A stretch of DNA of 64,000 nucleotides from Muricea muricata (Eukaryota > Cnidaria > Anthozoa > Malacalcyonacea > Plexauridae). Below are positions 48,938 through 61,865 of the stretch, piece after piece; the first letter of the stretch is position 1, and each line of letters starts with the position of its first letter. Position numbers and translations under genes: made by a program. The notes beneath the pieces were generated by a model that saw only the letters and a list, made by a program, of their open reading frames with translations, did no database searches and was not told where the DNA came from. The stretch covers positions 49,237,379 through 49,301,378 of the forward strand of contig OY979716.1 of the NCBI GenBank assembly GCA_963855995.1. The letters run 5' to 3'.

Positions 48938-49119
48938 CAAATAGATTTCATTTTTGCGTGCGTCTGTACTGTAATAGATCACAGATGACGTCATAGCATG
49001 TGAAGAACAAAAAAGTACGCACGAGAAACAGTCGAGTCCGTGACTTTTTGTTCTTCACACGCTATGGCGTCATCTGTGATCTATTACAGTACAGAAGCAC
49101 AAAAAATGAAATCTATTTG
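48938..49119. repeat. 182-bp palindrome inside Kolobok-3
   Basis: Arms of about 78 bases (aaatagatttcatttttgcg... and inverse) flank a 25-base centre. The arms include TGACGTCAT-like sites. It is probably a foldback MITE inserted in the element. Confidence 0.85.
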
Positions 49120-49870
49120 TTTTATATTATAATAAAGTTGACAAAAATCATGCGAAGACCCACAAAATTAGATCATGCCATCAGTTGACGTCATCCGTGC
49201 GTGTGTACTTTAATAGCACACAGCTCGCGACCAATGAAAATGCAGAATGAACACGTATTATTATATAAATATAAATAACAAACCTATGTAGATTGGGCAA
49301 AAAATGAAATAAATTAAATTGGATATACTTAGAAATTCTTCATCCAGCTAAAAAGTTTAATCATTGCTATCATCATCACTTGAATCGTCGTCTGTTCATA
49401 CATATGCATGTTGATTTTGGGTATTCAGTGTTTGAATCATCGTGACAAGCTTCGGAACAATAGTTGCCCATGATTTTGCACGGGCACACGTTCTCCCATG
49501 CTCTTTAAGGCATGCGCCAGGACAAGAACAAACAGACACTTCATCTGTGTTTGGAAACAATGCATTTTTTCAATTTCAAGTTGTTCAATATCGTCTAAAT
49601 TAAAACTTTAATCCATATTCGTTTATGCAAATTTATCACTTGCAAGTAAGTAAAACAAAATAGCCGAGGACAAGGAAGAGAAAACGAGCATGGGAATACT
49701 TCATGTAATTTCACTATTTAGCAACAAAAAATGTAAACAAACTTCACGCATGCTCAGATGGGACTGTACCACATCTTTAAATGAATTCACCAATGGTCGT
49801 AGTTTAACTTTCTGCCATCGCTTTAAACCCTTGATGAAAATTTTAGCTTTTACAAATTCTGAACACATGT

Positions 49871-50128
49871 AAACACGGGACGAAAAATTTGATTTGCACG
49901 TTTGCAGCAAATCATGTGGCAAATTCCAAGTTTGCACAGATTTACCAGATTTGCACGCGTGTAAACTACTAAGTTGCATGTATGTGCAAACCCCTAAAAA
50001 AGCTTGTATCGGCCGCGAAGCTGTACGGTGCAAATGTATTGCAAACTAAAGGCAAATATGAAGTTTGCGACTAGTTTATCTCACGTGCAAACCTTATGCA
50101 AACATAAAATTTGCAACAGGTTTGCTCA
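49871..50128. repeat. TTTGCA/GCAAA motif cluster, left flank of the 9.6-kb element
   Basis: At least ten TTTGCA or GCAAA motifs in both orientations fill this interval, and similar motifs occur right of the element at 59,732-59,950. The last nine bases, GTTTGCTCA, form the candidate target duplication with GTTTGCTCC at 59,732-59,740. Confidence 0.55.
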
Positions 50129-50222
50129 TAGCCTGCGGTGCAGACGCACATTTCCACACCCGCGGAAAATTAGCGTCTGCGTACCCGAGCGAGGATTTTG
50201 TTTCCATGACGTAAGCCAATCA
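50129..50222 (+). repeat. Left 94-bp terminal inverted repeat
   Basis: Begins TAGCCTGCGGTGCAGACGC and ends near CCAATCA. It matches the reverse complement of 59,638-59,731 with about 11 mismatches, mostly transitions. Within the repeat GCAGACGC and GCGTCTGC are themselves inverted and can form a hairpin with TTTCC/GGAAA inside. Confidence 0.9.
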
Positions 50223-51313
50223 TCTTGGCCAAGCCAATCAAATGGCTTATTGTAAACACCTGAAATTGTCCACGCATGGACGCCTGGATTAAAAAGGAAT
50301 GCGATGGGCTCTGTGTGATGGGGGGTGTCATATTGTTATCGAAATTGCTGTACTCTGGTCATTTATTATTATGAACGAAACACCGAAAAAGTTGTCACAT
50401 CGTCAAGAGTGTTGTTTTCTCCGCAAAAGTTTGTTAACTAATGATCGTGACAAGATCAGAGTGTTTGGAAAGAGTGATATATACATCCCGTCCTTGATTT
50501 TGCGTGCAACAAAGCTTGATCTTGCTCATTATGTGGGATGCGACAAATTTGCGATTTGTTGCGTAAGTTGTTACAAACGACTGACGAGATATAAAAATGC
50601 ACTGCAAAAAGTCAAAGATATTGAGTATGAAATTGCACCGGAATTCAACTTGTTGCTCCCTGTTTCCGTTAAAAGAATGGCAAAAGACGTAGAGGAAAAT
50701 GTGTTGCAAACAAGTAAAAGAAGTTTGACATATGAAGGTTCGAACGTTAAACCAGTCGCAATTACCAGCGAAGTTCTTCCCCTCGCAAGCGACACGGAAG
50801 AATTTAATTTGGATGGGTCTGTTTCAAAGCCAAACGCATCTGCGTTTGGTGTTCCTGGTCATATTTTCGGTGGTGGAACTTGTAGTCTTATTGCTTCAAA
50901 TATAAACTCAAATACAGTTCATCAGCCTGCTGAAGGTTGTATCAAAATTGCGAAAAGCCCGAAGTCATGTGAAATTAAAACATCTACGCCAATAAATAAA
51001 GCTAAACCGCCTACTTTCGAACAGCCTGACATAGAACCCGTGAAGAAGCAAACAAAGGTTTTTCTTACTGTGCAGTATCTAAGTAAAACTGTTCGGAAAG
51101 AACTGACTGACGATTTTGCAACCCTTGGGAAAGCAATTGCTCATGGTTCCCCTCAAAGAATTGCTAAAGCGGCATTAAAAATTGTTACATTAAAGAAGCA
51201 CATTCTGGAAAAGGTTTTGAAACTTTTAAGCTTGCAAGTAAGTGGATTGTGCTCACGTCGAAATCCTTCTATGCTTCTAGCAAAAACGAAGGAGGATTTT
51301 GCTAGTTTTGAAT

Positions 51314-51400
51314 TTCAAAACCTACGCATATATTCGCCTGTATTCAAAACCTACGCATATATTCGCCTGTATTCAAAACCTACGCATATATTCGCCTATA
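51314..51400 (+). repeat. 29-bp minisatellite, three copies, inside the DUF6589 gene
   Basis: The unit ttcaaaacctacgcatatat + tcgcctgta is repeated three times without gaps, followed by degenerate ttcgcctata units to about 51,430. Because 29 is not a multiple of three, each copy shifts the frame. The expected conserved WRER...LF region of the protein is replaced here. Confidence 0.9.
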
Positions 51401-52581
51401 TTCTATATTCGGCTATAAGCGCCTATATTCTATGCATTTTTGATGACTGTTACCACATTCAAAAATAAAAATGATCAACAATGGTTTCCGAGTGTAGCAA
51501 TAGCTGGCTCAATCCTTCTGAAACAACGCAATTCACACATGAATGGTTGTGCTACGATTCTTGGAATTCTATTAAAGACTAGATCAATTGAGGTAAGATG
51601 GCATTTATATAATTAATTTATATAATTTTGTGTATTGTTATATAACACCTGTTTTAGACATCAAGTTTTTCATATAGGGAAGCTATGCAAGCGGTAATTC
51701 GCTTACCCATAGCTTGCCCAACATTTAACTGTGTTGCATCAATATTTTACACGCTAATTGAAATGCTATCCCATGAAATTGACATCTGAAATCTACATAA
51801 TAATAGCCTGCGGTGTAACGTGCATATTTTTTGTGTACATATAATTCTATTGTTATAATGGACTAACTTTAGCTATTTTACGTCATAGTCAACTTTGAAT
51901 CGTTTGGCCAAACTGAAAGTCACATGCTGTGCTGGGAAACTACGTGGGAAACTACGTGGGAAACTAGATTTACTGGGCGAAAACCATGAGAAAGTAATCT
52001 TGGATATAAAGTCAAAAATGTGTCTTCAGCAACAGGTTCTTGCGGAAAAGGAAGATAATGTTGCAAATCTTTCTGAAAGATGTCAGAAAAGCAATGTATC
52101 AAACCATACTTGTACTAATATGTGTCCAGTTGAGAAGGCAAAAGCAGTAAATGATATGAAGAAAGAAAGATTAAATATGCACCCTGGTTTTGCGATTCTG
52201 TTTGACAGTAATTTGAACAGACGCCATATGACAATGGAAAACCAAAATTTGGACTATCACTGGGTTAATCATAAAATTGTTGTGAACAGAGTTTCGGGTA
52301 ATAAGTTTCACAAATCCCCAAGAGACATCCTAAACGTATCGAACCATAGATTTCTTCCAACTGTTCAAGATCAGAAGCGACAGAGACAAAACTACATTGT
52401 GTTGGTGGCAAGAATCCTTGTTGAGCATTTGGAATGCTCTAAAGTGTTTAAAGATGTGTGCGTCTTGCACATTCCCCTCAAATACTCTAAAGAATTGGCT
52501 GTAAAGAGCGAATCTGTAAGTAAAATGTATGCCATGAACAGTTGTTTTTACAAGTTGATTTCTATCTGCAAGCTGTTGTAT

Positions 52582-52704
52582 TAGTTTGACAGCTCTGAGT
52601 GCTTCGAACTAAGTAATGATCCGCAAAACAACAAGGTCTTGTAAATGTGTACAAGTCCTTCTGTTTTTGCGAATCATTAATTCGAATTCAGAGCTGTCAA
52701 ATTA
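52582..52704. repeat. Foldback element in DUF6589 intron
   Basis: tttgacagctctgagtgctt (52,584) is matched by the inverse near 52,700; arms of about 50 bases include gcaaaaacag. It lies between exons. Confidence 0.75.
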
Positions 52705-53350
52705 ATAGATTGTAGCTGATTTGAATTTTGATTGTAGCTGATTCGAATGTTTTAAGCTACAAAATATATCTAACATGTATATATTTAAACTTTCCTAGGT
52801 TCCCATATGCATTCTGTTCAAAAACGAAAATGCAACTGAAGATATGATTGAAATCTTAAAGAAATTTCAGTCATATATTTCATACACAACAGTTAATGGT
52901 AAGACGGAGTTTTAATCAATTGTGTGCTGGAGACCAGTTATCAGTTGAAAGATCAGTAAATGCAATCCATTCTGTATCAAATGGCTATACACCACAAGAC
53001 CGACTAGAGGGCTTCAACATGCAGTTAGGCGATTGGCATACTGGGGTGAAAATACTTCAGGTATATATTTAATAAATTACTATTCCTTAGGAAGCATCCT
53101 TATGTGTGAAGTGGACTACTGGACAATCTATTTTTTTTTTTTGGGGGGGGCATGTCCCATACTGGGGCACTTATGAGTGATGGGGAGGGAGGGGTCATAT
53201 CAGAAAGCACAACCTAAATTAATCAGAGTAAGTGTTCAGTCTAGTAAAAAGTAATATTGTATGACATTAAACAGTTCATATTCACAACAATCAAAAAATT
53301 GTACATTAAACCTGGTAAAATAACAGTACAATGAGTACATTATAGAAAAA

Positions 53351-53662
53351 TTATCTGCAATTAGGGACTTGTAAGAAATTAACAGTGGGGGAGATGAGGT
53401 GGAAACAGGGGGACGGTCATCAATTTTTGAGCCGCTAAAAATAGAGGAATGGGCTGCTTAAAGGGGAGTGGTGTTCAAATTTATGCTCGAGATCATATAG
53501 TTGTCGGCACACAGTATATTTAAAACATATATTAAGGAAAAAATACCACTATATTTGGTTCAACCCTCCATTTTTAGGGTCTTGAAAATTGATGAGCTCC
53601 CCCTGTTTCCACCTCTCCTCCCCCACTGTTAATTTCTTACAAGTCCCTTGGAGCAAATTATC
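53351..53662. repeat. Foldback element in DUF6589 intron, about 100-base arms
   Basis: gggacttgtaagaaattaac at 53,364 returns inverted at 53,628-53,648; arms continue through the gtggaaacagggggagnt and taaaaatngagg segments. It has no coding capacity. Confidence 0.85.
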
Positions 53663-55096
53663 AGGATATAATGTAACTATAAGTAGGGTGCAACTGAATA
53701 TGACATTCCACTAATCAGATGGGCCCTGCTTCATTATTTTACTATGTCTGATAAGTTTATCATTTCTGACAGCAGATAATTTGTTAATGGAAGAGCTTTA
53801 TAGCTGAATGGATTATATATACATACATATTTTATATTGCTTATTATCATATAGTTGTTGTTCCGCCGGTTTTACTTAACAAGTTCATCTGATGACAAGT
53901 GTTCCATGATGTCTGACAGAAATGTAATTAATCGGCGAAATGTAAGAGAGGACCCTCATAAAGCATACAAGGCAGATAGACTTTTTTGTTCTTGAAATAA
54001 ATGTTTGTATCATATATGCTGCTTATCACGTCTTTGGTTTAAAGGATTCATCTGGTGAACCCAAAAACTTACACATACCATCCAACATAGTTGATGAGTG
54101 TAAAATGAAGAAACTACAGTTTCTTCACAATGCTGCTGCAAAAATTGTTGATGAACTTGTGGTTAACAAAGACATGATGGATTCTACCATTCAAAGCATG
54201 ATCTCAGCTCAAGAACATCAGGAGCTACTCAATCGACAAGAACTAAATAATGAGGGCCGCTTTCCTTGTCGGTTTCCTGGATGCTCAAGGTCATTTAAAT
54301 ACAATGGCAAAACCCGGAAAAAACATGAACTTAGCCATGACACACCATTAAATGTTGTCAATTCTGAAACCAGTGCTATGAGTATAAACTCTCCTACCTC
54401 TACTTCTGCATCAACAGATGTAGATGATGTATTTAACTACAATACCGCACTTCTTGCAGAAGGTCTGTTCTTCCTAAATTTTTTGGATTCAGTTTGTGAA
54501 GGTGATGGTGAAAGGATACTCAGACAGTACAAGTACCTAATGTTATTGTGTAGGGCTGATGGTGCTCACAGCACTAAATATGCTCTTGAATGCCTGTACC
54601 AGTTACTTCTTGTGAATGGCTGCTTGAGTGAACGTGAAGCTGAAGTTTTCACCTGGAATAGAACAGTAAATAATCGTGGTGCTGCAGGTAAAAATATTCC
54701 TTTTGACCTCGAGGTAGAACATAGCAATAATTACATCAAGCAAGGAATCAACCATTTGGGTGTAAATTTAACAGAAAGTACAGTGTCCAGAGTTGCCAAG
54801 GCTGAGAGACCAGTGAGGGAAATTATTTTCAAGACAGACAAGAGCATTCAGTTTGCTTGTCGATCTGGTTTTCATGTTGAACATTTTCCAAAAACTGATT
54901 TTGATGCAATTTTAAAGGAGTTAGTTGATATGAAGGTTTTTGAAAAAAGGGTCGCCATTACAGACATTTCAACAATTTCCCAAGGGATCCTCTGAAGAAT
55001 TTGAATATGTCTCAAATGTATGAATGGATAAGCGAACATAAGAAAAAAATTTCTTCTGGTTCTAAGGCCAGATAATTTAAATGATAGAATCACACT

Positions 55097-55255
55097 AACT
55101 TTCTCAATAGAGGGGTATTGGGCAAACTTGGTATTATCACTTAACTAGCTTTCATTATAGATGGGCACAGGTTAACTTGGTAGAATCACTTAATAGTTAA
55201 TTAAGCTGTCTTTATAGAGGGGTATTTGCCTAACCTGCATTGCCACATCAACCAT
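55097..55255. repeat. Imperfect tandem repeat, about 56-bp unit, three copies
   Basis: Units begin TATAGA(G/T)GGG(T/C)A and contain ttggtaNNatcacttaa. Located just after the DUF6589 stop. Confidence 0.6.
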
Positions 55256-55507
55256 CTGTACTCTAAGATATTTCAGTACAAAAGCTGCCCATATGCAGTG
55301 TTGACAATAAATAATGCATCATGAAAGGGCACTGCTTATAAACACATGCAACCCTGCCCAAACACATAATGGAATTTTTATGCTTAATAATTTTATGACT
55401 ATTTCATGTATTAATAAACAGCATTCTGTGTAAGGTAAGACTATTTATTGCCAGACTGCACATCCATGGGTGGTTTTTGTAATATTTTCATGCTTGCATA
55501 GCGATTC

Positions 55508-55776
55508 ATAAGTTATTGAGCACCATCATCAAGGCATCAAAAATAGACATTCTGGTGTCTTTTGTGGCTGTTGCTGTAAGTGCAATAAAAGGAACACCAG
55601 GCAAGAGTGACCTGAATTCATGAAGCTCAGAAAACCACACTCAGAATGCTGTATGCTTGTTGCTTTTTGACAACCCCCTGGAAAGGATAACAATTTGGTA
55701 AGCCAGAGGTGAAGGGAAGAGGTGCTGGTAGTATGAATTCGTGATGTCTATACAAGACATAAGTTATTGAGCACCA
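55508..55776. repeat. Copied helicase-gene segment bounded by 18-bp direct repeats
   Basis: 55,524-55,760 equals 58,754-58,990 (237 bases, same strand) with one difference. It covers the 5' part of a helicase exon plus part of the upstream intron, so the copy was made from DNA, not spliced RNA. Both sides carry ATAAGTTATTGAGCACCA (55,508-55,525 and 55,759-55,776). The copy has no function by itself. Confidence 0.9.
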
Positions 55777-56609
55777 ACATCACTTAATGAATGTTTGTTT
55801 ATTAAAGGTGTTTAAATTACATGATAGCTGTTGTACATGATTGTATTTTGTCAGATCAATTAAGACCTAGTTTCTATTACAGAATACCAAATGTAAATAA
55901 ATACTCTAGTAGAATGTAAATAGCAGGAAATAGTGAATTGGTCTATGTTTTTTATTGATTGAATAATGATAATACTTATCTGGGTGGCTGCGTGTGTGTG
56001 TCTCGTGGTGCGTGGGTTGGGGTATCTCAGTCAAATATTTACCTTTTCATCAATTTTCAAGTACAGCATCAAAGCTCAAGTTCATCAATGCACAAACAGC
56101 TTCATAAGGTATGTCTACATCATTTGTGCTGCACTCCAATGAATCGTTATTTGATTCACTTGTTTGCAAAAAACTCAGTTCATCAATTGCCATTAAAGCC
56201 AATTCTTCATCCAACCCTAGGTCACTCCAGTCATCTGGAAGCAAGCAATCTTCTTCATCCGAAGACATTTCATCAACAGGACCACCAGTTGCTCCCTCCA
56301 TGTCCCCAAACAACTTCTGCATTATTTGATATCAGGGTTTCCACTTTTACAGCACAAAATTTCCTGTTTTGCTCACAATTTTTCCTCATTTTAAACGAAA
56401 TTTCCTTCATCAGTTTTGAAAATTTCCTTAAAATTTCCTTCTTGTAATAAAGTCATTTATGAAGGGCTAAACGGAGTTAAGTTTCGTGGTATGCCATGCT
56501 AGTGCGGCAAACTGGCATGCAAACAGGCAGACACTCGTGGCCATTCGGATTCCAAGACAACTATCAACACTCGACTTGGTCAAACATGTGGTTTAAAATC
56601 ACTAAACTA

Positions 56610-56955
56610 CAGGGTGAGTAAAAAAAAACTGATGCCCTTTCAAATTCAAATTAGCCGCGAATTTCATTACGGAACTTTAAGTATTCCCATAGGTATACAG
56701 AGAACAGATCGTGACTAAGTACACAGTACAGGATGAGTGTAAAAACTGATGCTATTGAAATTCAAACTAGCAGCATTTCATTCTTATAATTTGACAGACG
56801 TTGATATAAAACAAAATCTAATTCCCAGTGGAAGTGGTTTAGGTACTGTGAACTAAATCACGATCTGTTCTCTACATACCCATGGGAATACACTGTAATG
56901 AAATTTGCAGCTAATTTGAATTTGAAAGGGCATCAGTTTTTTTTTACTCACCCTG
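56610..56955. mobile_element. Mariner-type MITE nested in the hAT MITE
   Basis: Ends CAGGGTGAGTAAAAAAAA are inverted and TA-flanked (56,608 and 56,956). About 50 bases of inverted similarity follow (tttcaaattcaaattagc). A decayed internal copy of the end sequence lies near 56,728. Confidence 0.88.
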
Positions 56956-57034
56956 TATTTAATCCAGATAAAAGATTAAAAGGGATTAGCAGATTAGGGG
57001 GAAATGCTTCTGTTTAGGGCACTGACTAGGAATA

Positions 57035-57094
57035 CGACACCCAAGACATACTGACGACACCCAAGACATACTGACGACACCCAAGACATACTGA
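57035..57094. repeat. 20-bp tandem repeat, three copies
   Basis: cgacacccaagacatactga three times in a row. A second short repeat of gatgaatacgagt lies near 57,240. Confidence 0.92.
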
Positions 57095-57105
57095 GGAATC
57101 ATCAA

Positions 57106-57411
57106 AATAGACAAATTTGGCTAACAATGTTTTTTCTGTTGCCACCCATTTCCCAACTTTGGATTATTCACATGGTTGGATACCATTGTTCTCGTTTGCG
57201 GAAGAGTACCTTACGACAAACGTAACCAGGCATACGAGTGATGAATACGAGTGATGAATACGAGTTATTCACTCATATCCATACTTCTAAATGCGTAGTT
57301 ACTTTTGTTCTCCGTTACGCTGCCGCAAGCTAATATAATAGTAACTAGGCATGTGAGTGATATTAAAGTGTGAATTGGGTATAAACATAAGTTAGCCAAA
57401 TTTGTCTATTC
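57106..57411. repeat. Inverted repeat inside the hAT MITE
   Basis: aatagacaaatttggctaac at 57,106 recurs inverted at about 57,391-57,411. It may mark another nested element of about 300 bases. Confidence 0.6.
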
Positions 57412-59637
57412 CAGCTTATGCTTTTTTGACTGAACATTTCTCTCTTTTTAGTTTGTACTCTGATATTAGCAATATTAACATAATACAAAGTATTTTATAT
57501 ATAGTTTTTTGGAACTTCAACTTTTAAATTCTAGCTTCAGATGTATCTGGGTCTCACCATTGGGTTACAGTATCAGGTTACACACTTTATTCATGGTTAC
57601 ACAAATAGTTACACAGTGCTACATTAGCTAATATTAAAGTTTTTTCTATTTTCTTCCATTTTTTTGAAATTTCCTTCATATTTCCTTTTATTTTGCATTT
57701 CCTTTTTTTTCCTTCCAATCGCAAAAATTTCCTCAAAAAGGAAAAAATCCTTCAAAGTGGAAACCCTGTTTGATATACACCATAGGCATGCTTTATATCC
57801 CAAATTTCAATGTAGCTGCAAATGTCATCAATTGTAAAAATTTTGGGAGCATGTGCAATAACCTGCAAAATCTGTATATCTGAAAATCCCAGCAGAAATT
57901 TGGGGTGATTAAAAATCTTCAACTTTCCACTTGCATCCCTTTTTAACAAGCCCAATAGTAATCCTTTGTAAAATTTGTAAAGTTCAACTTTCAGTTCTTG
58001 ACACTTTTCAGATGTTATTTCACGTTTCTTGCCTGGCATTGAATCATTACTATGAGGCTGTACCTGAGCAGCTGGATAAGAAAGTACTTTACAGTCTTCC
58101 AAACCACAATTACATATTAAAGAGCAATTATCACAACATAAATGGAGCGGAGCTATAGGGCAGAATGTCACGTTGAAAAAACTAAGCAAAAATGTTCGCC
58201 TACAGTCTTTTGAATTGATGTCCTTTTCCACATGTGCCAGTTGAAAACTCTGATAAAGCATATAGGCTGTACTCTGTATACCATCTCTACCAGCTCGTCC
58301 ACTTTCTTGTATGAAAGCTTCAACATTTTTAGCTGGTCCAAAATGTATTGTTCTATTAACTTTCTTGCAATCCACACCCATACCAAATGCTATAGTTGCT
58401 ACCAGGACTCGAATGCAGCCATCCTCCATTTGAAATGATTGTAAGATATTTTCTTTATTGGGACTTGGGGTACAAGAATGCAGCATCTCTAATAACACTC
58501 GCTGCGGATTTTTTTGTTCAGGATCTTCATAAATGTTATCACCAAGAAGTTCTTTCAAAGTCGAGTAAACAACAGCACACTGCTTGATTGTCTGGCAATA
58601 TATAATAGTTCTAGTTGATGCAGTTTTTTGTGTTATTATCTCATCAGCAAGCCATGAGAAATAGCTGGACAAGCTTGCACCCTTCTCCATATACTTCACA
58701 ACATACGATATATTCTCTTTATGTGGACTTTGCATGATAAGACATGGCTCGTTCATCATCAAGGCATCAAAAATAGACATTCTGGTGTCTTTTGTGGCTG
58801 TTGCTGTAAGTGCAATAAAAGGAACACCAGGCAAGAGTGACCTGAATTCATGAAGCTCAGAAAACCACACTCAGAATGCTGTATGCTTGTTGCTTTTTGA
58901 CAACCCCCTGGAAAGGATAACAATTTGGTAAGCCAGAGGTGAAGGGAAGAGGTGCTGGTAGTATGAATTTGTGATGTCTATACAAGACATTCATTTATAT
59001 CTTATATTTTGAAAAAATATATTACGTACCAGTGTGAAATAATGTGTGCCTCATCCACAGCCACTGCTTTCACATTATTTCTGTAGACAGATCCAGAAAC
59101 CATCTTTCTTCATCTTTCATCACCTAGCCATAGTTCAGGGGACCCATATACAACAGAGTAATATCCACGTACAACCTTTTCTTCAATACTATCTGATGTG
59201 ATATCATTAAGGCCAATTGCACTGACCCCAAGAGAGTGAAGCCGAGTAACTTGATCTTTCATGAGACTATTTAATGGTGAAACTACCAAAACAATATGTT
59301 TATCGGGCTGGGTGTCCTGACTTGGCAAATTTTTGCCTTGATCGACTCCGTCTCCATGTTGTCTCGAACTGAAAACAATCGGTAACGCTTGAAATATAAA
59401 TGATTTTCCAAATCCAGTGGGCACATTCACGAATACATCTCTCTTTTCATCAACGATGCATTTTATGGCATCTTTTTGAAATTTATTTAAACTGGAGATG
59501 CCAAAAACTTTGCAAACATCCTGAAACGCGCTTTCCAGACTAACAGACATATATGCTATTTATTTATTTCCACGCGATTCTGTGTTTACCTCGCGTAAAT
59601 CGCGCGAGTTAGTTCCCTGATAATAGGAGCTGAATTC

Positions 59638-59731
59638 TGATTGGTTCACGTCTTGGAAATGAAATCCTCACTCAGGTACGCAGACGCTAATTTTCCACAG
59701 GTGCGGAAATGCGCGTCTGCACCGCAGGCTA
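59638..59731 (-). repeat. Right 94-bp terminal inverted repeat
   Basis: Reverse complement of 50,129-50,222 (about 88 percent identical). The helicase start codon lies 88 bases inside it, so the terminal repeat and the short spacer must include the promoter. Confidence 0.9.
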
Positions 59732-59740
59732 GTTTGCTCC

Positions 59741-60272
59741 GGGGCAAACCTACAAATGCCAACTTGAAATTTGGAGAGTTGTCACACACAAAAATCTAAT
59801 GCAAACTTCAAATTTGGCAAGGTTTTCATCTCGCATAAAATCAAAGAAAACAGACACTTTGCAAGAGTTTTGCATCGTATGTAAACGTATAGAAAACACA
59901 AGTTTGGCCATTACTTTGCCTACATAGCAGGCACATATTTATTAACATAAGATCAAAGTTTTTAATTAAACACAATAAAAACATTCACTTGTTATATTTA
60001 CAAAATAATAAACAGTGCACATAAAAATAGTTGAAAATTCAAACGTTTTAACATCTCAACATTGTTATCTAATTGTTCATTTAATCCAGAGGAGGTTGGA
60101 CAGCTACTTGCAAAGCATCATGGGAAATTTGCATCCGGTCTGTGGCAAATGTTTAATACACCCATTGTTCGTTTTGTACCTATTTTGTTCAACTCCAGCC
60201 ACTGTAGTCCATATAGTTAACAGTCAATAGTCTTCAAAAAGGTATCCATCGAATAGGATAGAAATTCAGACA
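59741..60272. other. GCAAA/TTTGC-motif DNA and AT-rich spacer
   Basis: The first 200 bases have repeated GCAAAC, TTTGGCA and TTTGCA motifs like the left flank of the 9.6-kb element. No gene is supported to the mariner end. Confidence 0.45.
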
Positions 60273-60274
60273 TA

Positions 60275-61865
60275 CAGTATGAACCACGCTATTAGTTAAA
60301 CTAGAAATTCGCCTTCTACATGTCCTCAATAAGCACCTCTAATTTGCAAGGAACGTGAAAATTGCGAGCAAAGGTGTGGAAACACCATTCCAATGTTTAC
60401 ATTTGTAAATGTCACGTGAATAAGGAGTTAGCGTCTGTGTGTATATAACAGGTGGCCCACTATATTAGTTGTACTCATTCATTTTCACAACGGGAAGAGG
60501 TAAAGATCTCAACGACGATGAAAAAAGGCAGATTATAAAAGAATTAGGCAAATCAACCCCATTGGAAAATATTGCAAAAAAAATCAATCGTCATTTAGTG
60601 ACAGTAAAACGGTTTTTGCATGATCCCATGAAGAAGAGGAAGACTCGCTCTGATCGTGGCATTCTTAAGTCAGTGACAAAGCGAGATCTAGGTATTTTGA
60701 AAAGAAATGTACGAAAAGTGCCTGGAACAATCAGCAAAAGAATTTTTCAAGAGTCTGGCATAACAGGCATCCCCAAAACAATGCGAAACAGGATACTGGG
60801 CCGAATAGCGAAACATAAAGCTTCCCAAAAAAGGCCGCCACTCTCATCAAGGCATAAAGGTTTGCGTCTCAACTGGGCCAGGAAATACATGAAATCAGAC
60901 ATGAAGTACGTCCTTTTTACCGACTAGTCACGAGCTACATTAGACGGCCCAGATGGATGGGCAAAAGGATGGGTCATAAATGGTGATCAAGCTCCCCGTA
61001 AGAAGAAGACGTCAGCAAGGAGGAGGAGGCGTCATGATATGGGCAGGAATTATTGGCGACGAGCTTATAGGTCCTGTACGCGTTCCACATGGAGTAAAAC
61101 TTACGTCTGCTACTTACTGTCAGTTCCTGAAGAATGTACTCGAGGAATAGCTAGAAGAGGTACCATTATCGGGATTGAAGAAGGTTGTATTCATGCATGA
61201 CAATGCACCATGTCATGCTGCCAAGGCAACCATTAAATGCCTACATGGCCTTGGTTTTAAGGACGAAACGCTAATGGTTTGGCCGCCAAATTCACCAGAT
61301 ATAAATCCAATTGAGAACTTGTGGGCAATAATCAAGCAAAGGGTCTATGCTGATGGAAAGCAGTTTTCCACGTTACATGAGTTATGGACAGCTATTAAAT
61401 TACAATCTGCTGCCATACCACGTTCACTTGTACAAAAACCTACAGATTCTATGACTGATAGGCTATTTGACGTCATCAGATGTCAAGGGGGGTATGTCAA
61501 TAAATGACTCCCTACTATTGTGCTTATCACGTGGTTTTCAGAATTTTCGTGGGTTGACCAGGAGCAGCCTTGAAGAAGTGTGTGTTGTTTGGAAGTGTGG
61601 GGCATACAATAAATCATTTTGTTCACTTGCTTTGTCAAAAACGTGTTTTATCTAATTGTAAACTGATAGCGTGGTTCAGAAGAAAATGACTAATATCTCT
61701 ACCATGAAATTACAACATGTGTTTCAATTGTTTGACTCCTTTTATGTTTCTCATGGGCTCAATGCGTTCTTTGGTGGATGTTGTCGCGATTTTTTGCGTC
61801 TACACCACCTTTATTGAGCGTATACTTTCACATGTCAAATTCAACTAATAGCGTGGTTCATACTG
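60275..61865 (+). mobile_element. Tc1/mariner transposon
   Basis: Ends CAGTATGAACCACGCTATTA are inverted and TA-flanked (60,273-60,274 and 61,866-61,867). A decayed extra copy (gatagcgtggttca) is at about 61,666. It contains one plus-strand transposase gene. Confidence 0.9.
60490..61507 (+). pseudogene. Tc1/mariner transposase, broken
   Basis: The N-terminal DNA-binding helices (LNDDEKRQIIKELGKSTPLE; INRHLVTVKRFL) are followed by the DDE core: first aspartate in MKYVLFTD, second in FMHDNAPCHAA, and the acid at the PDINPIENLWA motif. The expected initiator reads ACG at 60,490. TAG codons stand at 60,925 (right after FTD, where E is usual) and 61,148, and a frame change occurs near 61,000. The usual length of about 340 residues is otherwise kept. 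Confidence 0.85.

Follow-up and report, generated by a model that had tools for sequence, protein, structure and literature searches.

The closest described systems are DNA transposons of the Academ superfamily, which has been described as encoding a RecQ helicase (PMC3627910). The AcademH lineage of this superfamily is credited to Kojima 2020 (Mob DNA 11:15) and is known to us through citing papers, which describe AcademX and AcademH as lineages with different enzymes, AcademX having a nuclease, and with target site duplications of 9 or 10 bp in AcademH versus 3 or 4 bp in AcademX (PMC10045372, PMC10799480). According to such papers, AcademH elements encode a helicase together with a transposase and have animals and fungi as hosts. 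Our comparison with AcademH draws on second-hand descriptions in PMC10045372, PMC10799480, PMC9587614, PMC3627910, PMC12210899 and PMC8290104. A RecQ helicase is also described for KolobokH, a DDD/E transposon, and for one rhodophyte Kolobok element, where it lies on the complementary strand (PMC9587614).

Here we analyzed a 64,000-nt stretch of the Muricea muricata genome (the window) and observed that positions 50129–59731 are one copy of a multi-copy transposon. The longest inverted pair within 49000–61000 consists of the arms 50129–50222 (plus strand, starting with TAGCCTGCGGTGCAGACGC) and 59638–59731 (minus strand), which are 94 nt long and 88% complementary. The first 112 bases of the element gave 13 matches in its own genome, so that the 94-base inverted ends reported in the earlier note are not only present but recur. 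Searching the source genome with the ends, as that note had proposed, recovered three two-ended sister copies beyond the window copy: L009 (6488 bp, internally deleted), L010 (7806 bp) and L011 (7817 bp), which share ~94–97% identity with the window over long aligned stretches. Copies of the ends enclose both a DUF6589 gene and a RecQ gene, in agreement with the idea that the two genes belong to one transposon.

By comparing the flanks of the window copy and the three sister copies we determined a target duplication of 9 bp. The duplications are identical at 9 of 9 positions in L009 and L011 and at 8 of 9 positions both in L010 (GGCGGTGGG/GGCAGTGGG) and in the window, where GTTTGCTCA at 50120–50128 faces GTTTGCTCC at 59732–59740. 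The candidate duplication noticed earlier outside both ends is therefore real, but its length is 9 bp and not 8 bp. Joining the L010 flanks across one duplication leaves a frame of 66 codons open. A second family, L052, has ends unrelated to those of the window family, with matches at 57 of their first 60 bases between the two ends, and a perfect 9-bp duplication with GTTTTGGCG at both sides. Terminal inverted repeats and a duplication of 9 or 10 bp, both AcademH traits, are thus present in the window family and in L052, the duplication being 9 bp long; around locus L049 no terminal inverted repeats were found.

The DUF6589 gene lies on the plus strand and consists of four exons. Exon 1 (50371–51592) encodes a cysteine-rich N-terminal part and ends in stops in the window copy, but forms a single open frame in L010, its splice site being read by eye; it contains three 29-bp tandem repeats (51314–51403) at which the alignments with the sister copies break. 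Exon 2 (51889–52515) is open and holds the first acidic motif, which is FDNID in L011 and is shortened to FDSN in the window copy. The second acidic motif, GDQL in the sister copies, belongs to exon 3 (52799–53060) and lies in another frame after a stop in the window. Exon 4 (53900–55075, splice site inferred) contains the DUF6589 core, with a PF20231 match (E 9.8e-20, Pfam scan) in the plus frame 53946–54995, a C2H2-like zinc finger inside the core and, as the third acidic motif, EVEHSN; its frame shifts near the start and near the end in the window copy.

The RecQ gene is convergent to the DUF6589 gene on the minus strand. Its exon A (59030–59550, donor site by eye) carries the start codon, Walker A and DEAH, with a DEAD match (PF00270, E 2.9e-12) in the minus frame 59559–59110 and one in-frame stop in the window copy. 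Motif III, Helicase_C (PF00271, E 5e-18, minus frame 58870–57752), motif VI and part of the C-terminus are found in exon B (57769–58870), and the C-terminal end of the gene (56053–56332) is severed by a nested insert. The RecQ gene of L010 carries motifs I, II, III and VI. Among proteins of solved structure the best relatives of the transposon RecQ are WRN and then RecQ. Protein searches yielded 73 matches for DUF6589 and 7991 for RecQ, and the best 120 of the 7991 RecQ matches include coral models named WRN-like, mediator subunit 34-like and Bloom homolog. In viral contigs, none of 31 pattern-matching stretches encoded a relative.

The copy in the window is a broken remnant. The nested insert (56333–57768, 1436 bp) has perfect 15-bp inverted ends (CAGGGTTTCCACTTT) and an 8-bp duplication, TTTGATAT, at 56325–56332 and 57769–57776; we take it to be a hAT-like non-autonomous element, and L010 provides the uninterrupted site. 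Moreover, a 237-bp copy of the RecQ exon stretch 58754–58990 lies on the plus strand at 55524–55760 and is missing at that place in L010. Of the earlier description of two convergent genes filling the space between the ends, the convergent pair stands, but the genes are not intact because of this insert, the internal duplication, the stops and the frame break.

Next, we considered the nature of the DUF6589 protein. In an alignment of 21 rows the triad assigned from the motifs was conserved in all rows with a letter at the respective position (D in 14/14, D in 12/12 and E in 16/16, the E of row P0069 being probably a misaligned tail). A zf-AD match was obtained in L052 (E 3.4e-11) and a weaker one in P0066. 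When the DUF6589 profile was compared with solved structures by sequence search, three weak C2H2 finger matches resulted (E 0.046 to 0.32), which fall on the internal finger, and the structure prediction for DUF6589 was too weak to reveal an RNase H fold. Pfam gave DUF6589 as the sole transposase-candidate family in five window frames, which belong to a broken copy, and in ten relatives or pieces; neither a hAT nor a MULE domain was matched in this set. hAT elements such as Hermes make 8-bp duplications and differ in this from the 9 bp observed here; MuDR also makes 9-bp duplications. The DUF6589 protein is a probable DDE transposase of the element.

For a broader evaluation we analyzed the pairing of the two genes in the whole 453-Mb genome. 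PF20231 gave 104 matches at 102 places, since two places hold two matches each. A Helicase_C match was located within 6 kb of a DUF6589 place in at least 36 of the 102 cases, compared with 0.4 expected by chance, and 35 of the 36 paired helicases were convergent to and downstream of DUF6589; the counts of pairs are lower bounds because scoring covered 102 of 515 candidates for DUF6589 and 150 of 455 for the helicase. Within 1.5-kb flanks, RecQ was found at 8 of 30 DUF6589 places, each time downstream on the opposite strand, although for one of them (L024) the match covers an N-terminal piece only. Six loci taken with longer flanks showed a convergent RecQ in five cases; L048 has no RecQ within its 1.1 kb of downstream sequence. 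The RecQ proteins of paired families are ~21–49% identical (72% for the close pair L052/L053), and for ten pairs the DUF6589 and RecQ distances were strongly correlated (Mantel r 0.84, p 5e-5). The convergent DUF6589 and RecQ arrangement thus recurs in families that have diverged within this genome. This recurrence, the co-divergence and the kept D, D and E support the earlier proposal that DUF6589 is the transposase and RecQ an accessory enzyme.

Taken together, we consider it likely that an autonomous DNA transposon of the AcademH type left this degraded copy, with DUF6589 as its DDE transposase and RecQ as a dedicated helicase. Like AcademH, as described in the citing papers, the element encodes a helicase together with a probable transposase, has 9-bp duplications and comes from an animal. 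Membership in the AcademH type is likely because RecQ and 9-bp duplications are AcademH traits in those papers, the placement being made by such traits and not by reference proteins or ends. The element itself fits the described lineage, and we infer that DUF6589 is the AcademH transposase. The kinship with Academ suggested earlier is supported by these descriptions, and a new Academ-related branch is not needed.

It is unlikely that the locus represents a separate, undescribed superfamily that parallels AcademH in RecQ and 9-bp duplications with an unrelated transposase, and equally unlikely that such a superfamily would be built on an old DDE enzyme, equipped with zf-AD and an inserted zinc finger, that co-evolved with a private RecQ for a 9-bp-staggered reaction. 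AcademX, which is placed in one superfamily with AcademH in the citing papers, differs from the element in its 3–4-bp duplications and its nuclease, XPG, and no DUF6589 place among the 102 had any of the 26 XPG_I matches within 10 kb. This would fit a separate superfamily, but the absence is expected because AcademX and AcademH are described with different enzymes. DNA next to one of the XPG genes in this genome (L058/L059) likewise showed no detectable similarity to DUF6589, but this comparison concerns short pieces of an element for which no convincing ends were found. Our literature search found no paper mentioning DUF6589, which leaves room for an undescribed group; against it, RecQ, the 9-bp duplications and the animal host match the descriptions of AcademH and Academ in citing papers.

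An element of the KolobokH kind would also account for RecQ, but in the window RecQ is a separate convergent gene, DUF6589 was the only transposase family detected by Pfam in the scanned frames, and KolobokH is said to be known only from fungi (PMC9587614). The varied sequence of our 9-bp duplications also stands against this identity and largely refutes it. Kolobok elements duplicate TTAA, and we regard this origin as the least probable of all. Hardly more probable is a recent capture of a host RecQ as a passenger with no part in movement; the relation to WRN and other RecQ proteins of solved structure would be expected from a capture, but the same convergent pairing spans diverged families and the RecQ distances mirror those of DUF6589, by which a recent capture is refuted.

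For the AcademH-type transposon, the transposase would combine an N-terminal zf-AD-type zinc domain, as in relatives, with a catalytic D-D-E interrupted by a C2H2-like finger. It would bind the element ends, free their 3' strands and insert these into the target at positions staggered by 9 bp. RecQ helicases have 3'-5' polarity, and the enzyme may open the ends, strip DNA from the strand-transfer complex or aid gap repair at donor or target. Cut-and-paste is the most likely movement. Replicative movement of the same element (copy-out or peel-and-paste), in which RecQ would power strand displacement, is a reading that overlaps with the preferred one and is possible but doubtful: displacing a strand would be a natural task for a dedicated helicase, but cut-and-paste would yield simple two-ended copies with short duplications just as well.

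Our findings have consequences for annotation, as some of the gene models called 'WRN-like' in corals may belong to transposons, and caution is advised with the three kinds of model names found among the best 120 of the 7991 RecQ matches. DUF6589, listed in Pfam as a domain of unknown function, gains a probable role: it is probably the transposase of a RecQ-carrying, AcademH-type lineage. Since RecQ is a stable, co-diverging partner of this transposase, with many natural pairs available for study, the role of a helicase for a DDE transposase now becomes a concrete question.

We observed that the longest inverted pair within positions 49000-61000 of the window joins 50129-50222 with 59638-59731 (94 nt, 88% complementary) and encloses a DUF6589 gene on the forward strand and DEAD and Helicase_C domains on the reverse strand. 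The inverted ends claimed in the earlier note are real and recur in the source genome (453 Mb, 74 contigs; window at G000:C1:49237379-49301378), where the first 112 bases of the element matched 13 places and four copies have both ends: the window copy (9603 bp) and the sister copies L009 (6488 bp), L010 (7806 bp) and L011 (7817 bp). Among the other fetched stretches, L014 contains one end and both gene regions, L013 one end and mainly the RecQ side, and L012 one end together with 731 bases, while in L015 an end is represented by about 40 bases; L016 gave no row at the blastn cut-off. In their long alignments to the window, L009, L010, L011 and L014 are about 94-97% identical; the two longest alignments of L013 reach about 86%. 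Comparing the duplications across copies, as the earlier note had asked, we found CAATGATAG (L009) and GAGAAAACA (L011) immediately outside both ends, matching at 9/9, and flanking 9-mers mismatched at one base of nine for the window and L010 (chance level about 4e-6 for 9/9 and 1e-4 for 8/9 or better). Joined over one duplication, the L010 flanks form a single open frame of 66 codons. The L052 family (C1:75161723-75169560, 7838 bp) has ends unrelated to those of the window element, inverted-identical at 57 of the first 60 bases and flanked on both sides by GTTTTGGCG.

The window copy is a relic. Both proposed convergent genes are present within its ends, but they are broken: exon 1 of the DUF6589 gene holds 29-bp tandem repeats and stops at its end, exon 2 is open with part of the first acidic motif lost, exon 3 contains stops and exon 4 has frameshifts close to both of its borders. 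In RecQ, exon A carries a stop, and a nested hAT-like insert (56333-57768, 1436 bp) interrupts the gene. This insert has perfect 15-bp CAGGGTTTCCACTTT ends and an 8-bp duplication TTTGATAT; inside it, inverted repeats lie at 56605-56960 and tandem repeats at 57034-57097. Its site is uninterrupted in L010. Downstream of the DUF6589 gene, 55524-55760 is a 237-bp duplicate of part of the element's RecQ exon (58754-58990, 100% identical), bordered by a direct repeat of AAGTTATTGAGCACC and missing from L010; templated repair may have inserted it. TTTGCAA-like words recur densely in both flanks (49860-50128 and 59732-59900), so the insertion target may have been another repeat. Directly to its right, an open frame (60469-60927, 152 aa) looks like a candidate N-terminal part of a Tc1/mariner-type transposase.

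Over the whole genome, scoring 102 of 515 candidates for PF20231 (DUF6589) gave at least 104 matches, which fall at 102 places; scoring 150 of 455 for Helicase_C gave at least 150. The suspected co-occurrence held: a helicase lies within 6 kb of DUF6589 in 36 of the 102 places against about 0.4 expected from random placement, counts that take in copies of the window family, which are not independent within one family. Downstream, opposite-strand placement accounts for 35 of these helicases, and one lies upstream at 6 kb. By tblastn, RecQ was also found in six of the 66 DUF6589 places lacking a Helicase_C match within 6 kb. Longer stretches of the DUF6589 loci L047, L049, L050, L051, L052 and L053 contain RecQ; it was not seen in L048, whose examined stretch holds little downstream sequence. 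The 26 XPG_I matches in the genome (53 of 53 candidates scored) all lie more than 10 kb from these 102 DUF6589 places, the shortest distance being 13 kb. At L058 (G000:C1:30141500-30147500), together with L059, XPG nuclease exons lie near an opposite-strand frame bearing the motif HHREDHNHLLKRI; this is possibly an AcademX element, and ends were not found there.

In the sister copies the transposase gene has four exons with plausible GT-AG borders, picked by eye. Among the rows with a letter in a 21-row DUF6589 alignment, the putative catalytic acids are invariant: D in FDN.D (14/14), D in GD.L (12/12) and E in EH.N (16/16, including the probably misaligned tail of the relative P0069), with 7, 9 and 5 gapped rows, respectively, chiefly partial gene models. 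The residue following E varies in other families of the genome (for example, QEICN in L047 and QENRN in L052). PF20231 spans residues 385-852 of the relative P0002, beginning after the first acid (position 334), and a C2H2-like finger lies inside the core. A zf-AD domain lies upstream of the L052 core (L052:481-1023, E 3.4e-11); the match in the relative P0066 is weak (4.7e-5, below its cut-off).

The named relatives of both proteins are for the most part anthozoan, with some from lancelets, which makes an anthozoan host probable. Three contig sizes (594823, 25566 and 5858) are shared between the DUF6589 list (73 entries) and the RecQ list (best 120 of 7991), which suggests that the entries concerned may lie on the same contigs. 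Over ten pairs, eight from the source genome and two from size-matched contigs elsewhere, DUF6589 and RecQ distances correlate (r 0.84, permutation p 5e-5), the distances being plain identities from automatic alignments with some partial pieces.

The DUF6589 protein would act by DDE chemistry with a 9-bp stagger and RecQ would serve as accessory helicase; movement would most likely be cut-and-paste, the default for such elements, and less probably replicative. PMC10045372 gives duplications of 9 or 10 bp for AcademH versus 3-4 bp for AcademX, and its authors suggest that this difference seems tied to helicase versus nuclease. PMC3627910 names a RecQ helicase in Academ, and PMC10799480 lists AcademH, KolobokH and Helitron as sources of helicases. 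The tested features agree with AcademH, as citing papers describe it, and disagree with AcademX and KolobokH. The element is likely AcademH-type, short of a proven AcademH. DUF6589 found no mention in the literature searched, so the link between PF20231 and this lineage may be unpublished in those papers.

The RecQ of L010 carries the motifs GFGKS, DEAH, TATA and QESGRAGRD, and its closest solved structures are WRN, then RecQ and RECQ5. Listed relatives of the transposon RecQ include the coral proteins P0074, P0084, P0096 and P0182, named WRN-like, mediator subunit 34-like or Bloom syndrome homolog; some such names may therefore denote transposon genes mistaken for host genes.
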